From: Pseudomonadota bacterium
GTDB lineage: Bacteria > Pseudomonadota > Gammaproteobacteria > JAKAQQ01
DNA: 46,299 nt
Assembly: GCA_021785265.1 (NCBI GenBank)
Contig: JAJYFY010000005.1
Coordinates: 1-46,299 of the forward strand
Direction of reading: 5' to 3'
Of this stretch, positions 1,633 through 46,299 are shown one piece after another. The notes beneath the pieces are model-generated. The model had not been told where the DNA came from and ran no database searches. It was given only the letters and a program-made list of their open reading frames with translations. The translations under genes and the position numbers were made by a program. The first letter of the stretch is position 1. Each line of letters opens with the position of its first letter.

Positions 1633-2521
1633 ATGAAAAAGCACATGATTCTCTACTCTCTGATCCCCATCCTTGGCCTGGCCCTCGCGGCCGCACCGGT
1701 TCAGGCCGCGCCGCGTAATCTGGTCATGGCCGAGTGCACCAGCTGCACCACGGTGGCTGCTTTTCAGGATTACGCGCAGAGCGACATTCCGTCCGGTGCC
1801 TACTATGTGAACAGTGCCGGCACGCCCCATGTGGAAGCTCTGTTCAACGTCTACATACAATCCCCAAAGCGACATGGCCGCCTTCATTGGGCTGAGCGGC
1901 GTATGCCTCTCGACGGCCGATGGCGCGCCTTGCAGTTGGAACTATGAATGGAGTGATCCCGGTTCGATCTCCGAGATGCAGCAGGACTATGAGGAAGTCT
2001 TTCCACCCTTGGGGGTCGAGATCCCCTCGAGTGTGGCCAGCACGTTCACGGGGTCGGCCCAGGCGCCGGCGATCGAGTCTTGGCTGGCCAGTGAAACCCA
2101 ATCCGATCCTCCGTCGGTGGGAACCGTGGTCTTGGGGGTTTTCCCGGACGGCTCCGATGCGGAGTATATTGTGGTGGGGTCGAGTCCATTGAGCTATGGC
2201 TTCGTATCGGAGAGCGGACATGCGTCGGACGGGGTGCCGATCGATGATGGAGGCGATACGGTCGCAGTTCCGACCTTCAACTCCCTGGGCGCTTCCTCCT
2301 ATGATTTCTCGCCTCCTCCGATCTCTTCCTCGTACATCAAACCTCTGCTCATCCTGGATGAGCCGCATCCCATTGGTGTTGCAGTTTGTTCAAACACCTG
2401 TGAACAGGGGGCGGCTGACGCCTTGCAGAACACACTCAACGGGATCATCGAAAGTATTATTTTCAACAACTTTTTGTGCGACACGGATCCGGAGGCCGCA
2501 CTTTCCTGTGGGGGGGGTTGA
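1633..2521 (+). pseudogene. Secreted CxxC protein of the duplicated module, frameshifted (copy 1)
   Basis: I do not recognise the family. Translation from ATG 1633, behind a strong RBS (AGGAGG at 1621), gives a signal peptide of about 26 residues (MKKHMILYSLIP, ending VQAA), then the motif AECTSCTT (Cys35, Cys38) and IPSGAYYV. The frame then runs out to a stop at 1947. Homology to the intact paralogue at 42391-43251 continues in the +1 frame from about 1857 (NPQSDMAAF, STADGAPC, IPSSVASTFTG, VFPDGSDAEY, SESGHA) and ends at TGA 2519-2521. A one-base insertion near 1851-1860 explains this, so it is either a pseudogene or a sequencing error. A G8 run at 2510-2517 may hide a second shift: skipping one base would extend the protein to 2609 and overlap the next gene. 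The known biology supports only an exported protein with possible disulfides. Confidence 0.75.
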
Positions 2522-2587
2522 TGGGGTCGAAGGGCAGGCGACGGTGCTGCCGGGGACGGTCCCGGGAGTGGGGGAGATCGTGTCGGA

Positions 2588-3592
2588 ATGGGGATACTCC
2601 GCGGCCTGACTGAACCGGGGAGAGGATCCCGTTTCCGTGCCCGGATGGTGTGCATGCTGGGGGCTCTATTGGCGGAAGGGATTCTCTTGGCCTTGACGGG
2701 TCTCTGGCTGGGAGGATTGTCCCCCTTCCGAGCACGGATATCTTCTCATCACCACCGGACGAGTCCGGTCCAGTGGCTGGCCCATCCCGCCCCGCCGCTT
2801 CCGGCCGTCGTGCGGCATCTGCAGGAGCCGGTCTTTCGTCCGCCACAGCTTCCCCCGCTGCCTCGGGTGGCCCGGCCAGCGTTCGGGCTTCTGGTCCAGG
2901 TCAGATCTCTCCCCCGCTCCCAACTGCGTGCCCGGATCCAGAATCTCACATTGTCGGCATTTGGGGCGGGAGACGGGAGCCGGACTCCGGGGCTCTGGGT
3001 CGACGTGCCGATTCCCGGTGCTGGCGGACTGCCCGCTACGGGATTGTCCGTTGTCCAGACCCGGTATGATTGCGGCGTGGCAGAAACCACGATAACCGGC
3101 CTGAGCTGGATGGAAGGCCGGGTCAACCGGGCGGGACGGGTGGTCTCGGCCAGGTACTTGCTACGTCCCCCGCTACCCGGGGGAGCGATGGATGATGTTA
3201 AGCGGTGGTGGTCCCGGATAAAGCGTCGCCATCTGCGCTCGCTACGCCGCTGGCGTTTTGCGCCGCTCGTGCTCGACGGGCATCCCACCGGTTTCCGTAT
3301 TATCCTGGTAGAACATGTGGTCTATTGGCGCGATCTCCCGGTCACGCGAATCTATCAGGGACGCAGCCGGCGGTACATGCCGTGTATACCGATAAATTCT
3401 GCATCGGATATGGTGTTTACCGGCCGGATGCCGCGCTGGGTGCTCTATCCCCTCAACGGCCACCGTCCCTTGGCCGTGCTTCTGGCCTACGGGGACCGGC
3501 CCGTGCCGGGCATTGCCCAGGCCACAGCCGATGTGCTCCGGCAGGTGGAAAAGGGTACGGCCCTGGAGAAAACTCCCGGAATCTCTCGTTGA
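2588..3592 (+). CDS. TonB-like periplasmic-spanning protein (copy 1)
   Basis: This 334-residue protein has a short N-terminal tail, one membrane segment (about 20-44, ALLAEGILLALTGLWLGG), a proline-rich stretch (about 58-95, with PAPPLP and PPQLPPLP) and a C-terminal domain. The C-terminal half carries TonB_C-like signatures: EGRVNRAGRVVSARYLL and, further on, LRRWRFAPLVLDGHPTGF. It then has a family-specific tail, RWVLYPLNGHRPLAVLLAYG. It is clearly homologous to 41466-42488. TonB transmits proton-motive force from ExbBD to outer-membrane receptors, but no exbB, exbD or receptor gene lies in this window, so that role is inference. It directly follows the CxxC protein gene and would overlap it if the G8 tract at 2510 were read one base shorter. 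A start at ATG 2645 is also possible. Confidence 0.7.
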   Translation: MGILRGLTEPGRGSRFRARMVCMLGALLAEGILLALTGLWLGGLSPFRARISSHHHRTSPVQWLAHPAPPLPAVVRHLQEPVFRPPQLPPLPRVARPAFGLLVQVRSLPRSQLRARIQNLTLSAFGAGDGSRTPGLWVDVPIPGAGGLPATGLSVVQTRYDCGVAETTITGLSWMEGRVNRAGRVVSARYLLRPPLPGGAMDDVKRWWSRIKRRHLRSLRRWRFAPLVLDGHPTGFRIILVEHVVYWRDLPVTRIYQGRSRRYMPCIPINSASDMVFTGRMPRWVLYPLNGHRPLAVLLAYGDRPVPGIAQATADVLRQVEKGTALEKTPGISR

Positions 3593-39961: not shown

Positions 39962-40201
39962 ATGGCCACTCTGCACCGTGCCCGGAACTGGAAGATTCAG
40001 GTGTTCGGGCGAGAGCACGGTGTGCCGCACTTTCACGTGTGGACGCCGAATGCCGCGGCGGTGGTCGCGATCGATACCCTGGCGGTGCTGAGCGGGTCGG
40101 TGGATACGGGAGTTCTCGAGGAAGCGCGCGCGTGGGCCACTGGACATCGCGCCGAGCTCACGGCGGAATGGCGCCGCCTCAATCCGGAGAAGCAAGAGTG
40201 A
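39962..40201 (+). CDS. DUF4160 domain protein
   Basis: This 79-residue protein matches the DUF4160 pattern: a start rich in basic residues, WKIQVFGREHGVPHFHVWTP with clustered His residues, and a C-terminal helix (LEEARAWATGHRAELTAEW). DUF4160 genes are commonly found just before DUF2442 genes in mobile regions and are suspected to form toxin-antitoxin-like pairs, but the biochemical role is unknown. The gene has its own promoter and overlaps the next gene by 4 bp (GTGA). Confidence 0.78.
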   Translation: MATLHRARNWKIQVFGREHGVPHFHVWTPNAAAVVAIDTLAVLSGSVDTGVLEEARAWATGHRAELTAEWRRLNPEKQE

Positions 40202-40638
40202 AACTCAAGATCACGCGAGTCGAGACCCTGCCGCCGGCGAGGCTGCGCGTCACGTGGGAGAGCGGCAAGCAAAGCGAGGTCGACGTCGGGGAGTATCTTC
40301 AGACGCCCGGGCACGAGCGGCTGCGGGATCCGACCTTTTTTGCGACCGTCCAGGTGGAAGCATGGGGCCATGGTGTCGAGTGGCCGGCGGCAGACATTGG
40401 AATTCCGGCGCCGGCTCTCTACAGGCTGTCGAAGGAGCAGTCGGGGGACGCGTTTCCGACCGCGGAGTTCAACGTCTGGATGGAGCGGCATGGCCTGTCG
40501 CTCTCCGCCGCTGCCCGGGCGCTGCATTTGACGCGGCGAACCATCATCTACTACAGCACGGGGGCCAAGCCCATCCCGGTCTACATCGGCCTTGCCTGCA
40601 GGGGCTGGGAGGCCATTCATCGAAAGCGCGTCGCGTAG
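40198..40638 (+). CDS. DUF2442 plus helix-turn-helix protein
   Basis: This 146-residue protein has two parts. Residues 1-75 match DUF2442 (ITRVETLPPARLRVTWESGK, then VEAWGHGVEWPAADIGIPA). Residues 95-140 form a helix-turn-helix (MERHGLSLSAAARALHLTRR, TIIYYSTGAKPIP) that could bind the operator-like repeat upstream of 39962. It partners the DUF4160 gene with a 4-bp overlap. It would fit an antitoxin or autoregulator role, which is inference. Confidence 0.75.
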   Translation: MKLKITRVETLPPARLRVTWESGKQSEVDVGEYLQTPGHERLRDPTFFATVQVEAWGHGVEWPAADIGIPAPALYRLSKEQSGDAFPTAEFNVWMERHGLSLSAAARALHLTRRTIIYYSTGAKPIPVYIGLACRGWEAIHRKRVA

Positions 40639-41013: not shown

Positions 41014-41469
41014 TCATGGCTTCGGGGAAGGGGCGGTACCGGGAATCAGGATCTTCAGGATGTGGCTCAGGTGGGGGTTCCAGTGTCGGACGTAGATCGC
41101 CTCAGCCCGTTTCACGAGCACTTCTATACAGCCATTGGTCAGGTCCTGAGCGCTGGGTTTATCTTTCCATGGGATGAGCAGGATCCCGTTGGCGCCGAGG
41201 TGCGCTGCGGCGCGCGCATCCCGCATCAGGATCGATAGGTTTATTCTGGCGCATCCCCCCAGGATCAGTCCCGTATGGGCCAGTCGAGCCACGATTGTGA
41301 AGTGTTTCGGGACCAGCGGGGACACAAAGACCATGACTTGCTGGACGGGAATGCTCGAATGGGCGGGGCCTACGACCACCGGGGTCGAGTAGCAGGCGGA
41401 AAGCCCCAGGGTGATGGCTCCGATCATCAGGACGGATCGCCCCCCGACCCAGAGGCTCCTTCCCTTCAT
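41014..41469 (-). CDS. Predicted lipoprotein, third gene of module copy 2
   Basis: I do not recognise the family. This 151-residue protein has a lipoprotein signal: a hydrophobic stretch from about 13, then LGLSAC with Cys26 as the lipid-attachment site. The mature part includes VMVFVSPLVPKHFTIVARL and DARAAAHLGANGILLIPW. That pattern (a beta strand, then a helix ending in GAN plus a hydrophobic strand) recurs in several small bacterial lipoproteins. It overlaps the TonB-like gene by 4 bp (ATGA) and is therefore translationally coupled. Module copy 1 has no counterpart. Confidence 0.7.
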   Translation of the reverse strand: MKGRSLWVGGRSVLMIGAITLGLSACYSTPVVVGPAHSSIPVQQVMVFVSPLVPKHFTIVARLAHTGLILGGCARINLSILMRDARAAAHLGANGILLIPWKDKPSAQDLTNGCIEVLVKRAEAIYVRHWNPHLSHILKILIPGTAPSPKP

Positions 41470-42488
41470 GGTCGAGTGTCGCCGGCCTGGAGACGTCTTT
41501 CAATCCGAAGGACTGCCCAGGTCGTGGCCTGGGCGACATCCAGAATGGGATAAGAACCGAGGGCTAAAAGCACAGCCAGGGGGTGGTGCCCCGGGATCGG
41601 ATAAAGAACCCAATGCTGATTTAAGAGTTCATTAGATCCACCGAAATCTGATCGGGTATGAAGGGCAAACAGGGGGTGCCGAAGATGCTCGGTCGGTATA
41701 GCCGTTCCCACATGTCTCCACCAGAGTGGAATGACAATGTGAAAGCCTGAATGGTGTCCATGCAGGCTCAGTGGCGCAAACCGCCAACTCCGGATCCAGA
41801 TTTTCGTGAGGTAGATGAAGGATTCTCCGAGCTGGGACTGCAAAACGGTGAGGCGGACTACCCGACCGCTCTGATTGACGTATCCCTCGATCCAGATGTA
41901 GCGAGGGGGCACGATGTCGACATTTCTTTTATGTGGCACGGGCCCCCAGCTGATCAGTTTTACCCGGTAGGGGGTCGCCGGGAGGCCTCCTCCCCCCGGG
42001 ATGGGAATGTTCACAGAGATCCCGTGCATCACTCCATCTCCGGCACCCGGGTTGGGCAAGGCCTGGAGCAGGCTCCCTCGTTGTACTTCGACCCGCACCG
42101 CTAGACCGGCAAGCCCACTCGGTCCGGATCCCAATCGCAAGGGGGGTGGGGTGGGAACCGCAATCGCCTGATGTGGGATCCGCTGACGCGGTGGGGTGAT
42201 CGGCGTCGGCTGAACCTGCCTGATCCAGTGGATGACCCTGTGGTGAATCAAAGCCCGAATGAATGGCTTGGGGCTCTCTGTGAAATGCTGGATCCAGAAG
42301 GCAAAGCCCACAAGGATCAGGCACTCGAGAACCCCAGCCAAAACCCATCGCAGGCTTTTTCCCCGCACCGTCCCGGTACCCAAACAAGACTTAGGGGATG
42401 CTTCCAGGAAAGTTATCCCAGTATGAAAATTCTGTTGGTTGGTCCTGGTAGTTTTGTACATTTGATTCCAGGAAACTTTCCAATGCAT
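41466..42488 (-). CDS. TonB-like protein (copy 2)
   Basis: This protein is homologous to 2588-3592. It has a membrane segment (LRWVLAGVLECLILVGFAFW), a proline-rich periplasmic stretch (QPTPITPPRQRIP, PTPPPLRL) and a TonB_C-like domain (EGYVNQSGRVVRLTVLQS, IRSWRFAPLSLHGHHSGF). The shared module-specific tail is WVLYPIPGHHPLAVLLALG. The start is uncertain. I give ATG 42488 because AAGGGGG lies 9 bp upstream, but it overlaps the preceding gene by 98 bp. GTG 42368, after that gene's stop and just before the membrane segment, is an alternative with a poor RBS. The N-terminal part before the membrane segment is not conserved with copy 1. Confidence 0.7.
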   Translation of the reverse strand: MHWKVSWNQMYKTTRTNQQNFHTGITFLEASPKSCLGTGTVRGKSLRWVLAGVLECLILVGFAFWIQHFTESPKPFIRALIHHRVIHWIRQVQPTPITPPRQRIPHQAIAVPTPPPLRLGSGPSGLAGLAVRVEVQRGSLLQALPNPGAGDGVMHGISVNIPIPGGGGLPATPYRVKLISWGPVPHKRNVDIVPPRYIWIEGYVNQSGRVVRLTVLQSQLGESFIYLTKIWIRSWRFAPLSLHGHHSGFHIVIPLWWRHVGTAIPTEHLRHPLFALHTRSDFGGSNELLNQHWVLYPIPGHHPLAVLLALGSYPILDVAQATTWAVLRIERRLQAGDTRP

Positions 42489-43251
42489 TTGTCCCAGCCC
42501 CCTTGGCCTTACCAAGGATGGCTTGATCGTACGCCGTTTCCCGCTGGATTGATGCCACAGCCTGTTTCAGGTTGAAAAAGGCCGAGCTGGTTACAAAGGT
42601 ATATTGGGGGGGGCTCACGACCTCACCCGAATCGTTCTCGGGATCCCCATTGGCGGCATGACCACTATCCAGCACAAAAGTGAAGCTCAAGGGACTGGTT
42701 CCCGTGACCTGATACTCTGCGCTCGACCCGTCCGGAAAGATCGTCAGGAGCACAAAACCAAGCGGTGGATTACTGGATTGGGATGTCAGATAGCTGTTGA
42801 GCCAGGCACTCACGGCCGAGGCCTGGGAGGTGCCGGTAAAGGTGCTGGCCACGCTGGAGGGAATCTGGATTCCCGTGGAGGGAGCCAGCATAGAGAACGC
42901 ATTTTGTTCCTCTGTGCTCGTCCCCGTCAGGTTGTCCCAGCTGATATCCCAGGTGCAGGGGGCACCATCTGAGGTCGAAATGCAGGGACCATGGGCGGTG
43001 ATCTCCGAAGCAAGCGAATCATCCGGATTGAAGATCGCAAATGGCACCTCCATTTTCTCTCCCGTCGAGGTCCAGAAATAGGCTCCCGATGGAATATTGC
43101 TCTGGGCATAAGCCTGGAACTGGGCTGCGGTCGTACAGCTGGTACAAATATCGGTGGCGATATTGTTGGCCGCCTGGGCAGGGCTGGTCGACCAGACGGT
43201 CAGGACCAGTCCGCAGAGGGGGATCAAGAAAAAAATCACATGCTTTTTCAT
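42391..43251 (-). CDS. Secreted CxxC protein of the duplicated module (copy 2, intact)
   Basis: I do not recognise the family. This 286-residue protein has a signal peptide cleaved near PAQA/ANN (27/28). It then has CTSCTT (Cys36, Cys39), IPSGAYFW, a second cysteine pair in GPCISTSDGAPCTW, IPSSVASTFTG, TIFPDGSSAEYQV and DSGHAANGDP. Four cysteines in the mature protein suggest disulfides or a CxxC redox/metal site; nothing confirms either. Copy 1 (1633-2521) shares all these motifs. ATG 43251 has AAAGGAGA 9 bp upstream and matches the MKKH start of copy 1; in-frame starts further upstream are unlikely. It opens a three-gene operon. Confidence 0.8.
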   Translation of the reverse strand: MKKHVIFFLIPLCGLVLTVWSTSPAQAANNIATDICTSCTTAAQFQAYAQSNIPSGAYFWTSTGEKMEVPFAIFNPDDSLASEITAHGPCISTSDGAPCTWDISWDNLTGTSTEEQNAFSMLAPSTGIQIPSSVASTFTGTSQASAVSAWLNSYLTSQSSNPPLGFVLLTIFPDGSSAEYQVTGTSPLSFTFVLDSGHAANGDPENDSGEVVSPPQYTFVTSSAFFNLKQAVASIQRETAYDQAILGKAKGAGTNALESFLESNVQNYQDQPTEFSYWDNFPGSIP

Positions 43252-43316
43252 GACAGGTCTCCTTTGGGTCCATTGACATTTTTGGACTTGAGACATCTGC
43301 ACCAAGCTCTTTTCGG

Positions 43317-43345
43317 ACCATACCCTTCCCCCGGAGATCTGTCAA
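43317..43345 (-). promoter_or_regulatory. Putative promoter of CxxC/TonB-like module copy 2
   Basis: On the minus strand TTGACA (43345-43340) is followed by a 17-bp, G-rich spacer and TATGGT (43322-43317). The start codon lies 66 bp further on. The sequence TTGACA-ATCT-G-rich-AGG(T) is shared with the promoter at 1531-1558. Confidence 0.5.
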
Positions 43346-43435
43346 ACAGCGGGCAGGAACAGATGGATTTACGTTTCCTTTCGGCTTGCGGGATCTGGTG
43401 GCGGTAGCGTCATGAGACCGCACCGCTCGCAGATT

Positions 43436-43636
43436 TCAAGCGGTGCCAAAGCCATAGTCAATGGACTGTGGCGTAGCCCCCGTCTTCGCGGCTTGCAGAA
43501 TCTCGATGCCGACGACATGACCCGCCTGGTCAAGGTCCAGGATCACTCCCGGTCTGGTCTCCTCGCACTCGCTGACGGGATGATCGCTGATCCGCAAGGT
43601 CAGGGTATCGGTTTCCGGGTCGTAGCGTACTTTCAT
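43436..43636 (-). CDS. DUF2283 domain protein
   Basis: This 66-residue protein has the DUF2283 pattern: MKVRYDPETDTLTLRISDHP near the start, then GVILDLDQAGHVVGIEILQA. Such proteins often sit next to DUF4258 or other putative toxin genes in mobile regions, and their function is unknown. No intact partner is visible: upstream (43637-43781) there is only a 145-bp gap before the divergent resolvase. GGAGAA precedes the ATG by about 10 bp. Confidence 0.8.
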   Translation of the reverse strand: MKVRYDPETDTLTLRISDHPVSECEETRPGVILDLDQAGHVVGIEILQAAKTGATPQSIDYGFGTA

Positions 43637-43781
43637 AGCGTTGCGTTCTCCAGTACTTCGGGATCTTGCGGGTCTGGTAAACGGTCGTTTGATGGACAGC
43701 CCGCCGGGACACAAATTAAGGGGGGTAAAGCCTCCGTTTGGTGTTAGATTACTCGTCAGCTTTTCAATGTCGTGAAAACCT

Positions 43782-44357
43782 ATGGCATCCCATCGACTGG
43801 GCTACGCCCGGGTCTCGACCGAGGACCAGAGTCTGGACCTGCAGCGTGACGCCCTCGGGCAGGCCGGATGCGACCGGATCTATGAGGAGCGGGCCAGCGG
43901 GAAAAGCACCGATCGGCCCGAGCTCGACGAATGTCTGGTGGATCTCCGCCCGGGAGATCGCCTGATCGTGTGGCGACTGGATCGGCTGGGCTGCAGTCTG
44001 CCCGATCTGGTCCGCATCCTGGGCGAGCTCGAGCAACGGGGCATCGGCTTCGAGAGTCTGGCCGAACGCATCGAGACGGGGAGTGCCACCGGGAAGCTGA
44101 TTTTCCATGTGTTTGCCGCCCTGGCCGAGTTCGAACGGAATCTGATCCGGGAGCGGACCCAGGCCGGCCTGGCCGCCGCCCGGGCGCGGGGGCGCTCCGG
44201 GGGGCGGAAGCCCAAGATCGGCGAGCGGGAACGTCGCGAGATTCGGGCGCTTTACGAGTCCAGAACCATCGCGGTGTCCGATATCGCACGGCGTTATGGT
44301 GTCTCACGCACGACGCTTTACAAGCACCTGAGCGAAACAGCACCTCTGGGGCGTTGA
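43782..44357 (+). CDS. Serine recombinase (resolvase/invertase family)
   Basis: Small serine recombinases resolve cointegrates or invert DNA through a 5'-phosphoserine intermediate. The 191-residue protein has the nucleophile Ser12 in LGYARVSTEDQSLDLQRDAL and the catalytic Arg set including LIVWRLDRLG. It also has the long E-helix region (AALAEFERNLIRERTQAGLA) and a C-terminal helix-turn-helix (TIAVSDIARRYGVSRTTLYK). It is full-length. No cognate transposase of the Tn3 type is in the window. A res or inversion site would be expected in 43637-43781, but I cannot define one. Confidence 0.93.
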   Translation: MASHRLGYARVSTEDQSLDLQRDALGQAGCDRIYEERASGKSTDRPELDECLVDLRPGDRLIVWRLDRLGCSLPDLVRILGELEQRGIGFESLAERIETGSATGKLIFHVFAALAEFERNLIRERTQAGLAAARARGRSGGRKPKIGERERREIRALYESRTIAVSDIARRYGVSRTTLYKHLSETAPLGR

Positions 44358-44540
44358 AACCCGGCGCCGACCGCAGGGGGGCGGGGGCTTATGCTAAAGC
44401 CTGTATTAAGTCAACTGTAAGGATGACCGTCCCTATGGGTTTTTGAGTCTTTGACGAGGCGCTGGCGCACCGTACCGGTACCCCCGACACGTTCCCGATG
44501 ATAACATCTGGAAAATGCCCCGAGATTGGATTATCCTGTG

Positions 44541-44596
44541 TTTAACAAGACCCGCCACGCCTCTCCACGGAAGCGCACCAGGGCGGGTTGTTTTTT
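44541..44596 (+). ncRNA. Structured RNA candidate upstream of the abi gene
   Basis: AACAAGACCCGCC (44544-44556) pairs with GGCGGGTTGTT (44582-44592), giving an 11-bp stem with a 2-base bulge. The 25-base loop can form a small inner stem (CGC/GCG). A T6 run follows at 44591-44596, like a Rho-independent terminator. TATCCT at 44533 could be the -10, so transcription would start at the foot of the stem. A conserved 'abiF RNA' motif has been described upstream of abiF-type genes; whether this matches its consensus I cannot test. A plain terminator of the upstream resolvase is the main alternative. Confidence 0.45.
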
Positions 44597-44612
44597 GCGC
44601 GGTGCTAGCCCC

Positions 44613-45000
44613 ATGAAGTACGCCAAGCCCGCATTATCGCTGGACGAGCAGATCGACCAGCTGGCCCGCCGGGGCATGCACATCCCTGATCGCGAAAGCG
44701 CCACCCACACCCTCCGGCATATCAACTACTACCGCCTGCGCGCCTACTGGCTGCCCTTCGAAATTCCGTCCGAGGTCGGTGGAGACCACACATTCCGCCC
44801 CGGCACCGCATTCCCGGACGCCGTTGCGCTGTACGCCTTTGATCGCCGCCTGCGGCTGCTGGTCATGGACGCCATCGACCGCTTCGAGGTGTCGTTGCGC
44901 ACCCGCTGGGCGCATGTGCTGGCCATGCGTCACGGCCCGCATTGCTACCTAGACGTCAATCTGTTCCGCAGGCCGCGCGAGCACGAAAAGTGGATGTATC
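44613..45000 (+). pseudogene. Abi_2 (AbiD/AbiF-type) abortive-infection protein, 3'-truncated
   Basis: Abi_2-family proteins abort phage infection. The preserved N-terminal part has the family landmarks: YAKPALSLDEQIDQLARRGM, HTLRHINYYRLRAYWLPFE and LYAFDRRLRLLVMDAIDRFE, then VSLRTRWAHVLAMRHGPHCY. Similarity stops near REHEKW (about 44990), after which the frame runs into unrelated sequence and ends at 45023. Family members are about 300 residues long, so more than half is lost. The start at ATG 44613 has no clear RBS. Confidence 0.8.
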
Positions 45001-45169
45001 CAAGTACCGGTGGTATCCGGTGATCGGGTTGGGGCTGTTTTATCCGGCAGGGACAGGGAGTGCAGATGGAGGTTTGTATCCCTGGGTGGTGGCGGATCTG
45101 GGGAACGGGCATCCGGATGTTATTGGGATTCATCGTTTCAAGGGGATGATGATTATTTTGTATGGGGAG
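45001..45169. other. Unassigned 170-bp segment between abi fragment and IS3 element
   Basis: This stretch is less GC-rich than its surroundings. One frame, open from before 45000 to 45208, reads KYRWYPVIGLGLFYPAGTG and then GGLYPWVVADLGNGHPDVIG. It looks protein-like but I do not recognise it. It is probably the tail of another gene brought in when the abi gene was broken. Confidence 0.35.
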
Positions 45170-45230
45170 TGGAGTGCCCCCGATTTTTCGGACCGAAGTC
45201 AGGTTTAGGATAGCCAGATGGGGGTACGAG

Positions 45231-45491
45231 ATGAAGAAGCGGTATTCGGAAGAGCAGATCGTCAAGATTCTGGGCGAAGCGGCTGGGCACGGTATGCCCG
45301 CGACGGCGCGCAAGTACAACGTATCGGAGCAGACGCTGTATCTGTGGCGCCGGCGGTTCGAGGGGATGGAAGTTCGCCAGGTGGTCGAGCTCAAGCGCCT
45401 GCAGCAAGAGAATGCGCGGCTGAAGAAGCTGGTGGCCGAGCGGGATCTGGAGCTTGAAGTGGTGAAGGAGATCGTCGCAAAAAAACTCTGA
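45231..45491 (+). CDS. IS3-family transposase OrfA (helix-turn-helix)
   Basis: OrfA binds the element's ends and regulates transposition. The 86-residue protein has the HTH (KKRYSEEQIVKILGEAAGHG, KYNVSEQTLYLWRRRF) and a leucine-zipper-like coiled coil (VVELKRLQQENARLKKLVAE). I chose ATG 45231 at the conserved MKKRYSEEQ. The last codons overlap the frameshift site. Confidence 0.93.
   Translation: MKKRYSEEQIVKILGEAAGHGMPATARKYNVSEQTLYLWRRRFEGMEVRQVVELKRLQQENARLKKLVAERDLELEVVKEIVAKKL
45479..45485 (+). promoter_or_regulatory. Programmed -1 frameshift site (A7) of the IS3 element
   Basis: Seven consecutive A residues occur two codons before the orfA stop. In frame the sequence reads GCA AAA AAA CTC TGA; slipping back one base gives AAA ACT CTG AGC GTG TCG, which enters the orfB frame. 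This is the standard IS3-family mechanism for making the OrfAB transposase. Confidence 0.75.
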
Positions 45492-45493
45492 GC

Positions 45494-46299
45494 GTGTCGG
45501 CACGGCGAGAGTGTGCCCGGCACGCGCAACACTGCGGGGTCAGCCAAGTGCGGGCGTGCCGGATATTTCGTACTGCGCGTTCGACGTTGCACTACGAAGC
45601 GAAACGCCCGTCCCAGGAGGCGGCGCTGGTTGAATGGATGCGCAAACGGGTAGGCGAGCAGCCCGATTGGGGCTATCGGCTGGTCTGGGGGCGTGCCCGC
45701 AATCAGGGTTGGCACGTCAGCCTCAATCGGGTACACCGGCTATGGCAGCAATACGCCCTGCAGCAGCCTCAACGGGTGCCGCGGCGCAAGCTGGTCACCG
45801 GGGCGAAGCTCACTCCCGCGCCACGGTTGCGCAATCACATCTGGTGCTATGACTTCGTGCATGATCGGGACGCGGCGGGGCGGGTCATTCGCTGCCTCAC
45901 TGTGAAGGACGAAGCGAGCGCCTATGCGCTCGCGGTGGTGCCCGCCCGTGCGTACAACGCGGCTGACGTGCGTGCCGTTCTCAAGCGGCTCGTCCGGGAA
46001 TATGGTTATCCGGCGTATCTGCGCAGCGACCGGGGCAGCGAGTTCATGGCGGCCGATCTGCGGGAGTGGCTCGCGGCGAATCGTATCCAACCTGCTTATA
46101 TTGACGCCGGCAAGCCTTGGCAGAACGGATCGAGCGAGAGCTTCAACGGTACACTGCGCCGGGGTTGCCTCAATCGCTACGAGTTTCACGGCCTTGAGGA
46201 CGCAAGAATTCGGATGGAGCAATGGCGGCGGATCTACAACGAGGTCCGCCCACACAGTCGGCTGGGCTACTCGCCACCCGCCTCAGCCTACTTCCTGGA
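45494..46299 (+). CDS. IS3-family transposase OrfB (DDE integrase core), partial
   Basis: OrfB carries the retroviral-integrase-type catalytic domain. Read from about 45494 (GTG, or by -1 frameshift from orfA), the open frame continues to the window end without a stop. It contains SARRECARHAQHCGVSQV, an HTH-like region, GYRLVWGRARNQGWHV, and the DDE triad: Asp in WCYDFVHD, Asp in YLRSDRGSEF, Glu in NGSSESFNGTLR. The C-terminal RIYNEVRPHSRLGYSPP is also present. Only the last few residues are missing. It appears intact. Confidence 0.92.
   Translation, partial: MSARRECARHAQHCGVSQVRACRIFRTARSTLHYEAKRPSQEAALVEWMRKRVGEQPDWGYRLVWGRARNQGWHVSLNRVHRLWQQYALQQPQRVPRRKLVTGAKLTPAPRLRNHIWCYDFVHDRDAAGRVIRCLTVKDEASAYALAVVPARAYNAADVRAVLKRLVREYGYPAYLRSDRGSEFMAADLREWLAANRIQPAYIDAGKPWQNGSSESFNGTLRRGCLNRYEFHGLEDARIRMEQWRRIYNEVRPHSRLGYSPPASAYFL

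Follow-up and report, generated by a model that had tools for sequence, protein, structure and literature searches.

We found that the secreted CxxC protein encoded twice in the window, that is, in the whole analysed stretch of 46,299 nucleotides, belongs to an undescribed protein family, here called A, which nearly always travels with a TonB C-terminal domain (CTD), a lipoprotein, or both. The interpretation that we favour, though only tentatively, is that of a paralogous family of extracellular A proteins with a dedicated periplasmic TonB-CTD/lipoprotein module for their export, anchoring, or display. A preliminary description of this DNA had placed a homologous pair of A and a TonB-like partner, here called B, at 1633-3592 on the plus strand and at 43251-41466 on the minus strand, and both pairs are indeed there, with all the motifs said to be shared by the A copies (CTSCTT, IPSGAY, STxDGAPC, IPSSVASTFTG, and FPDGSxAEY) and by the B copies (WRFAPL and the WVLYP..GH.PLAVLLA tail). 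Three points of that description had to be changed: the “two-gene module” usually consists of three genes, or of A plus a fused protein called C′, the third gene of copy 2 (C2) having been overlooked; copy 1 is not an intact pair, given that A1 is frameshifted around 1852-1855 and only B1 is whole; and the two pairs are members of a larger family. The features of both copies are as follows:

1633..2521, plus strand: A1, gene for a secreted CxxC-family protein, frameshifted, with the signal peptide and the first ~71 residues in one frame and the rest in another
2588..3592, plus strand: B1, TonB-like partner, intact, with an N-terminal helix, a Pro-rich linker, a TonB-CTD-like domain, and the conserved WVLYP tail
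41014..41469, minus strand: C2, small basic lipoprotein, third gene of the module, with the lipobox LSAC and an ATG that overlaps the B2 stop
41466..42368, minus strand: B2, TonB-like partner, with a GTG start ~22 bp past the A2 stop
42391..43251, minus strand: A2, secreted CxxC-family protein of 286 aa, with a core at ~residues 25-209 followed by a variable tail
43252..43353, minus strand: conserved DNA upstream of A2, common to the copy at C48 (85% over upstream plus core)

In copy 1, residues 1-71 of A1 are encoded at 1633-1845 and residues 72-225 at 1850-2302, with four surplus bases at 1852-1855 relative to the nearest intact relative (G001:C12). The 3′ part compared with this relative gives a dN of 0.10 and a dS of 0.70, and therefore any disruption of A1 is recent, or else it is an assembly error; A1 is thus a pseudogene or possibly the product of such an error. 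The open frames of A2, B2, and C2 are undisturbed, and C2 is probably translationally coupled to B2. Upstream of A2, there is a sigma-70-like TTGACA-17-TATGGT match at 43345-43317 that, taken alone, is no better than those of shuffled sequences. As for the surroundings, a PpiC-type peptidyl-prolyl isomerase gene lies 5′ of copy 1 on the same strand (179-1288, plus; PF00639, 4.6e-19), whereas copy 2 is adjoined by a cluster of a DUF2283 gene, a serine resolvase, and a transposase orfA (43436-46299). An Abi_2/AbiD-like abortive-infection gene at 44613-45020 (plus), matching only the first part of its profile, is probably truncated (136 aa vs. 277 in the profile), and a DUF4160-DUF2442 gene pair stands at 39962-40635 (plus).

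The association of A with its partners was followed by scanning every locus with HMMs of the A, B, and C families, on gene tables made with a simple codon-usage caller rather than a standard annotator. Of the 24 A loci with 300 bp or more of downstream sequence, 23 had B, C, or C′ as the next partner on the same strand, the single exception being a short A fragment (L177), and the co-occurrence that the preliminary description had proposed to tabulate across genomes is therefore far above chance. The third family, C, is that of C2, and in C′, a TonB-CTD-like domain is joined to C within one protein. A lipobox occurs in two C′ proteins, and most of the others have a cleavable-looking signal. 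The gene orders found were:

A-B-C: window copy 2, L083, L057, L062, L063, L066
A-B: window copy 1, L064, L076, and remnants in L069
A-C-B: L079
A-C-C-B: L082
A-C: L071, L081
A-C′: L058, L059, L060, L061, L062, L073, L078, L080, and a remnant in L083

At two of these loci, L061 and L076, A is cut off from its partner by an insertion sequence or transposase gene. L062 (G001:C9) carries tandem modules, A-C′ and then A-B-C, where the end of B, C, and the following DNA are 96% identical to the G001:C25 copy, a clear recombination tract. The partners are also present without A at L065, L072, L077, and L162-L165, so that the dependence runs one way, and B, C, and C′ may have other roles. Other genes recur in these neighbourhoods. 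Related exported proteins of ~515 aa, which by eye resemble S10 carboxypeptidases, are encoded a few kb at most from A or C′ (L066 1557-3098, L071 1984-3546, L081 5055-7212, and L164 7198-8760), and an exported family of ~200-240 aa with a conserved WRTTKLxRILVxGHR stretch occurs near A genes (L063 10062, L066 10946, and L177 3792). At L074 (G004:C30, 475-10836), a divergent A gene lies near a pilin-like operon that includes a PKD/subtilase-like protein of 607 aa, the pilins being equally poor in Lys and Arg.

The family has a narrow distribution. The genome of the window (1.78 Mb in 125 contigs, 85% complete) contains at least two further A copies, one at C48 with its own B and C and one at a contig edge (C78), besides remnants, and in total ~30 A copies and remnants were found in eight of nine genomes of a single family, with up to eleven matches per genome; the one A-negative genome is 65% complete. 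Among 365 further genomes of the class, none gave an A match, and in a phylum-wide sample of 398 genomes, the only match outside the window's own genome was marginal (G531, E 0.007) and was taken as chance among that number of genomes. Together, these ~760 other genomes thus contained no convincing A, nor did any match appear in viral contigs or plasmids. C-like genes, for their part, occur in five other sampled genomes of the class, and C-like lipoproteins and C′ also stand alone elsewhere in the family. This uncultured bacterial lineage is probably acid-loving, a premise that rests on protein composition and on the kind of sample set, whose habitat would be acid mine drainage.

The amino acid composition separates A from its partners. 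Mature A proteins have 1-3% Lys plus Arg, a pI of ~4.1-4.3, and mostly 16-25% Ser plus Thr, in contrast to B and C, with 10-15% Lys plus Arg and a pI of ~10-12. When the 329 local genes are ranked by Lys/Arg content, all 17 called A genes are among the poorest 26, the rest of which include pilin-like proteins along with further exported or membrane proteins. Given this pilin-like company and the basic partners, we infer an exposed location of A outside the cell, and the compositional contrast fits an A located outside with partners inside. The cysteines C36 and C39 of A are nearly always kept, while the two cysteines of a second pair are either both there or both missing.

A matched nothing in Pfam, NCBIfam, PHROGs, or PADLOC, and the PDB sequence search returned nothing for A or C. 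The model of A has a fairly confident core (~residues 30-215) and a low-confidence tail, and Foldseek gave no credible match to it among PDB and viral structures, the best viral one (E 2e-3) having been discarded at a TM of 0.18 and an rmsd of 12.5. The mature N-terminus of A may contain a TonB-box-like strand. The relation of B to TonB, which the preliminary description had proposed, is borne out by four lines of comparison. In the same four family databases, the searches with B and C gave only weak matches to TonB_C in a few partners, PF03544 matching two of 13 B members (best E 8e-5); the PDB sequence search with B ranked solely TonB CTDs (E 0.18-0.39) above a single chance match; by hhalign, B and the TonB of the lineage itself aligned with an E of 1e-4 and a probability of 57%; and B is homologous to the C-terminal half of C′ (hhalign 91%, E 9e-7, 127 columns), so that C and the TonB-like domain are tied together by the fused and split forms. 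C′ was modelled with AlphaFold2 (mean pLDDT 71.6), and all of the top 11 PDB matches of the model were TonB CTDs (E 6e-3 to 0.15), the best with a probability of up to 1.00 and a TM of 0.64 by target, and the predicted fold of this part of C′, to which B is homologous, is that of a TonB CTD. After the TonB CTDs, the C′ model matched DUF74/YbjQ structures (3qkb, probability 0.51-0.69 and E 0.15-0.19, at moderate model confidence), a family to which we take 1vr4 to belong as well; C itself has no Pfam match and an hhalign probability of 7% with E. coli YbjQ, and a YbjQ/DUF74-like fold of C2 is possible.

The architecture described for B was likewise recovered, with one N-terminal hydrophobic helix (best 19-aa mean hydropathy of 2.0-2.5), a Pro-rich linker (7-12% Pro), and a divergent TonB_C-like C-terminus; C′ is not built in this way. 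The motor-binding SHLS motif (SxHxLxS) of TonB and TolA (PMC12204202) is missing in the B helix, which has AxxxE/D instead. Likewise, the lineage's TonB at C22, beside a TonB-dependent receptor, has AxxxE/D without the canonical His, and the missing SHLS is therefore not decisive for or against motor coupling. No ExbB/ExbD or TonB-dependent receptor gene appears near the loci in the neighbour tables, in agreement with what had been stated for the two window pairs, and exbBD-like and tolQRA genes sit elsewhere in the genome, with ExbD-family genes on C43 and C123 only. The transmission of energy, suggested earlier as a role of the partner, is unlikely as the function common to all modules, because the same CTD rides at many loci on C′ as a lipoprotein or exported protein without the inner-membrane anchor, whereas periplasmic binding can be a shared role. 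For this reason, export, anchoring, or display is preferred for A, and the fused lipoprotein-TonB-CTD argues that such a domain can function even when it is not linked to an inner-membrane motor in the usual way.

The evolution of the module combines constraint and exchange. The A core shows a dN/dS of ~0.1-0.25 in most pairs, but identity past the SGHxxxGxPxxDSG motif falls to 26-72%. Two copies of one genome are ~96% identical from ~130 bp upstream through the core, but their tails are only 55% and their partners 46% identical, and in other pairs, 92-99% identity is confined to the first 75 codons, all of which indicates that the upstream DNA and head recombine between copies. The earlier proposal of selection rather than recent duplication thus stands as to purifying selection on the core, but not for those parts that are recent recombinants, where upstream DNA and head, 95-99% identical at the DNA level, are joined to divergent tails and partners. 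The identity of the A tail tracks that of C given the core (partial Spearman 0.68, Mantel p 0.0002), a lead only, given that these ten loci are a small and related sample, and no correlation was found with B (Mantel p 0.65). Several A copies have decayed.

Bringing these features together, we infer an extracellular A to which the TonB-CTD binds, in a module that serves export, anchoring, or display and not uptake. A would be exported by Sec, fold in the periplasm, with its CxxC and second cysteine pair, and come to lie in acid surroundings, either on the cell surface or outside the cell. A dedicated periplasmic binding arm for A or for its outer-membrane exit site would be formed by the TonB-CTD-like domain, placed either on B, which has an inner-membrane anchor and a Pro-rich linker, or fused to the lipoprotein or exported C′, while the C domain, as an outer-membrane-type lipoprotein, would hold the arm or A at the outer membrane. 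The 23/24 association, the operon-like spacing, the signal and lipoprotein sequences, the TonB-CTD matches of the C′ model, the fused and split forms, the Lys/Arg contrast, and the precedents of FusB and PopC/Oar speak for this mechanism; against it count the absence of an encoded outer-membrane component at the A loci, the lack of a known fold or family for A, the partners without A, and a tail that tracks C and not B. The more specific proposal that the TonB-CTD directly handles an outgoing, acid-adapted surface or secreted A by means of the TonB-CTD/lipoprotein apparatus, as a new outward-acting use of the domain, we consider rather improbable. If the favoured interpretation is right, TonB-type domains would be extended from import to export or surface anchoring, and the ~30 shuffled variants would be a natural set for locating the part of A recognised by its partner.

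Also unlikely is a dedicated Ton uptake system, in which A would be a secreted scavenger comparable to the hemophore HasA, and B a TonB paralogue powering the import of its ligand, as HasB (PMC9008036), through a receptor encoded elsewhere. The helix, linker, and TonB-CTD-like domain of B, its AxxxE/D shared with the TonB that stands beside a receptor, and the ExbBD-like genes of the genome agree with it, but every locus lacks a receptor and a type I exporter, SHLS is missing, C′ carries the CTD at many loci without an inner-membrane anchor, and scavengers do not usually come in so many copies with variable tails. The variable tails might suggest instead polymorphic recognition or antagonism, with the A head serving for delivery or display, the tail as effector or recognition part, and C or C′ as its cognate partner or protector. 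A does have a conserved N-terminal and a variable C-terminal part, as polymorphic toxins do, together with recombining upstream DNA and core in sharp contrast to a divergent tail and partner, the tail-C relation over ten loci, and several degraded copies; its tails, however, are short (48-112 aa) and graded rather than unrelated, A matches no toxin or defence family, the partners are conserved homologues and not diverse immunity genes, the tail is uncorrelated with B, and the sample is small and phylogenetically linked, so that this reading is hardly likely.

Equally, we give a low probability to a loose linkage in which A, either periplasmic or secreted, would be an acid-stable protein with a structural or metal-binding role, and its partners B and C would be general envelope proteins with no role in assembly or transport; the solitary C-like lipoproteins and C′ and the C-like genes of other class members agree with it, but not the fact that A is almost always accompanied by a TonB-CTD/C partner, in several orders and in fused or split form. 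A mobile or selfish gene cassette is very improbable: the copies do stand at different sites, several of them near insertion sequences and copy 2 near the resolvase and transposase, but no integrase or transposase was seen to accompany the unit consistently, the insertion sequences at L061 and L076 split A from its partner and hence disrupt it, it was not found in viral contigs and plasmids, and its core is under purifying selection.

Compared with known systems, B resembles the TonB/TonB_C proteins (PF03544, including HasB and FusB) in its single N-terminal helix, Pro-rich linker, and beta-beta-alpha-beta CTD, and the model of the homologous C′ domain matches the TonB and FusB CTDs. It differs in that the family model misses most B members, in a further conserved stretch at the C-terminus (WVLYP..GH.PLAVLLA), in the missing SHLS motif, in the lack of an adjacent ExbBD or receptor, and in a domain that also rides on C′. 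The C domain model is weakly similar to YbjQ/DUF74 (3qkb), and C has an “A..LGAN”-type helix motif in common with YbjQ of E. coli and, more loosely, with the lipoprotein RcsF, but this sequence similarity is not significant (hhalign probabilities of 7% and 1%), and C differs from YbjQ/DUF74 also in its lipoprotein form and its occasional fusion to a TonB-CTD. The linkage of a secreted protein gene with a TonB-like gene recalls HasA-HasB, although the A modules have no receptor or type I exporter, a familyless A, and an extra C gene. FusB, in turn, is TonB-like and directly binds a protein as its substrate (PMC7593965), and PopC/Oar is a case of Ton-dependent protein secretion (PMC6434023); the A loci differ from the latter in lacking a TonB-dependent transporter, but resemble it in that a Ton-like component possibly helps to move a protein outward.
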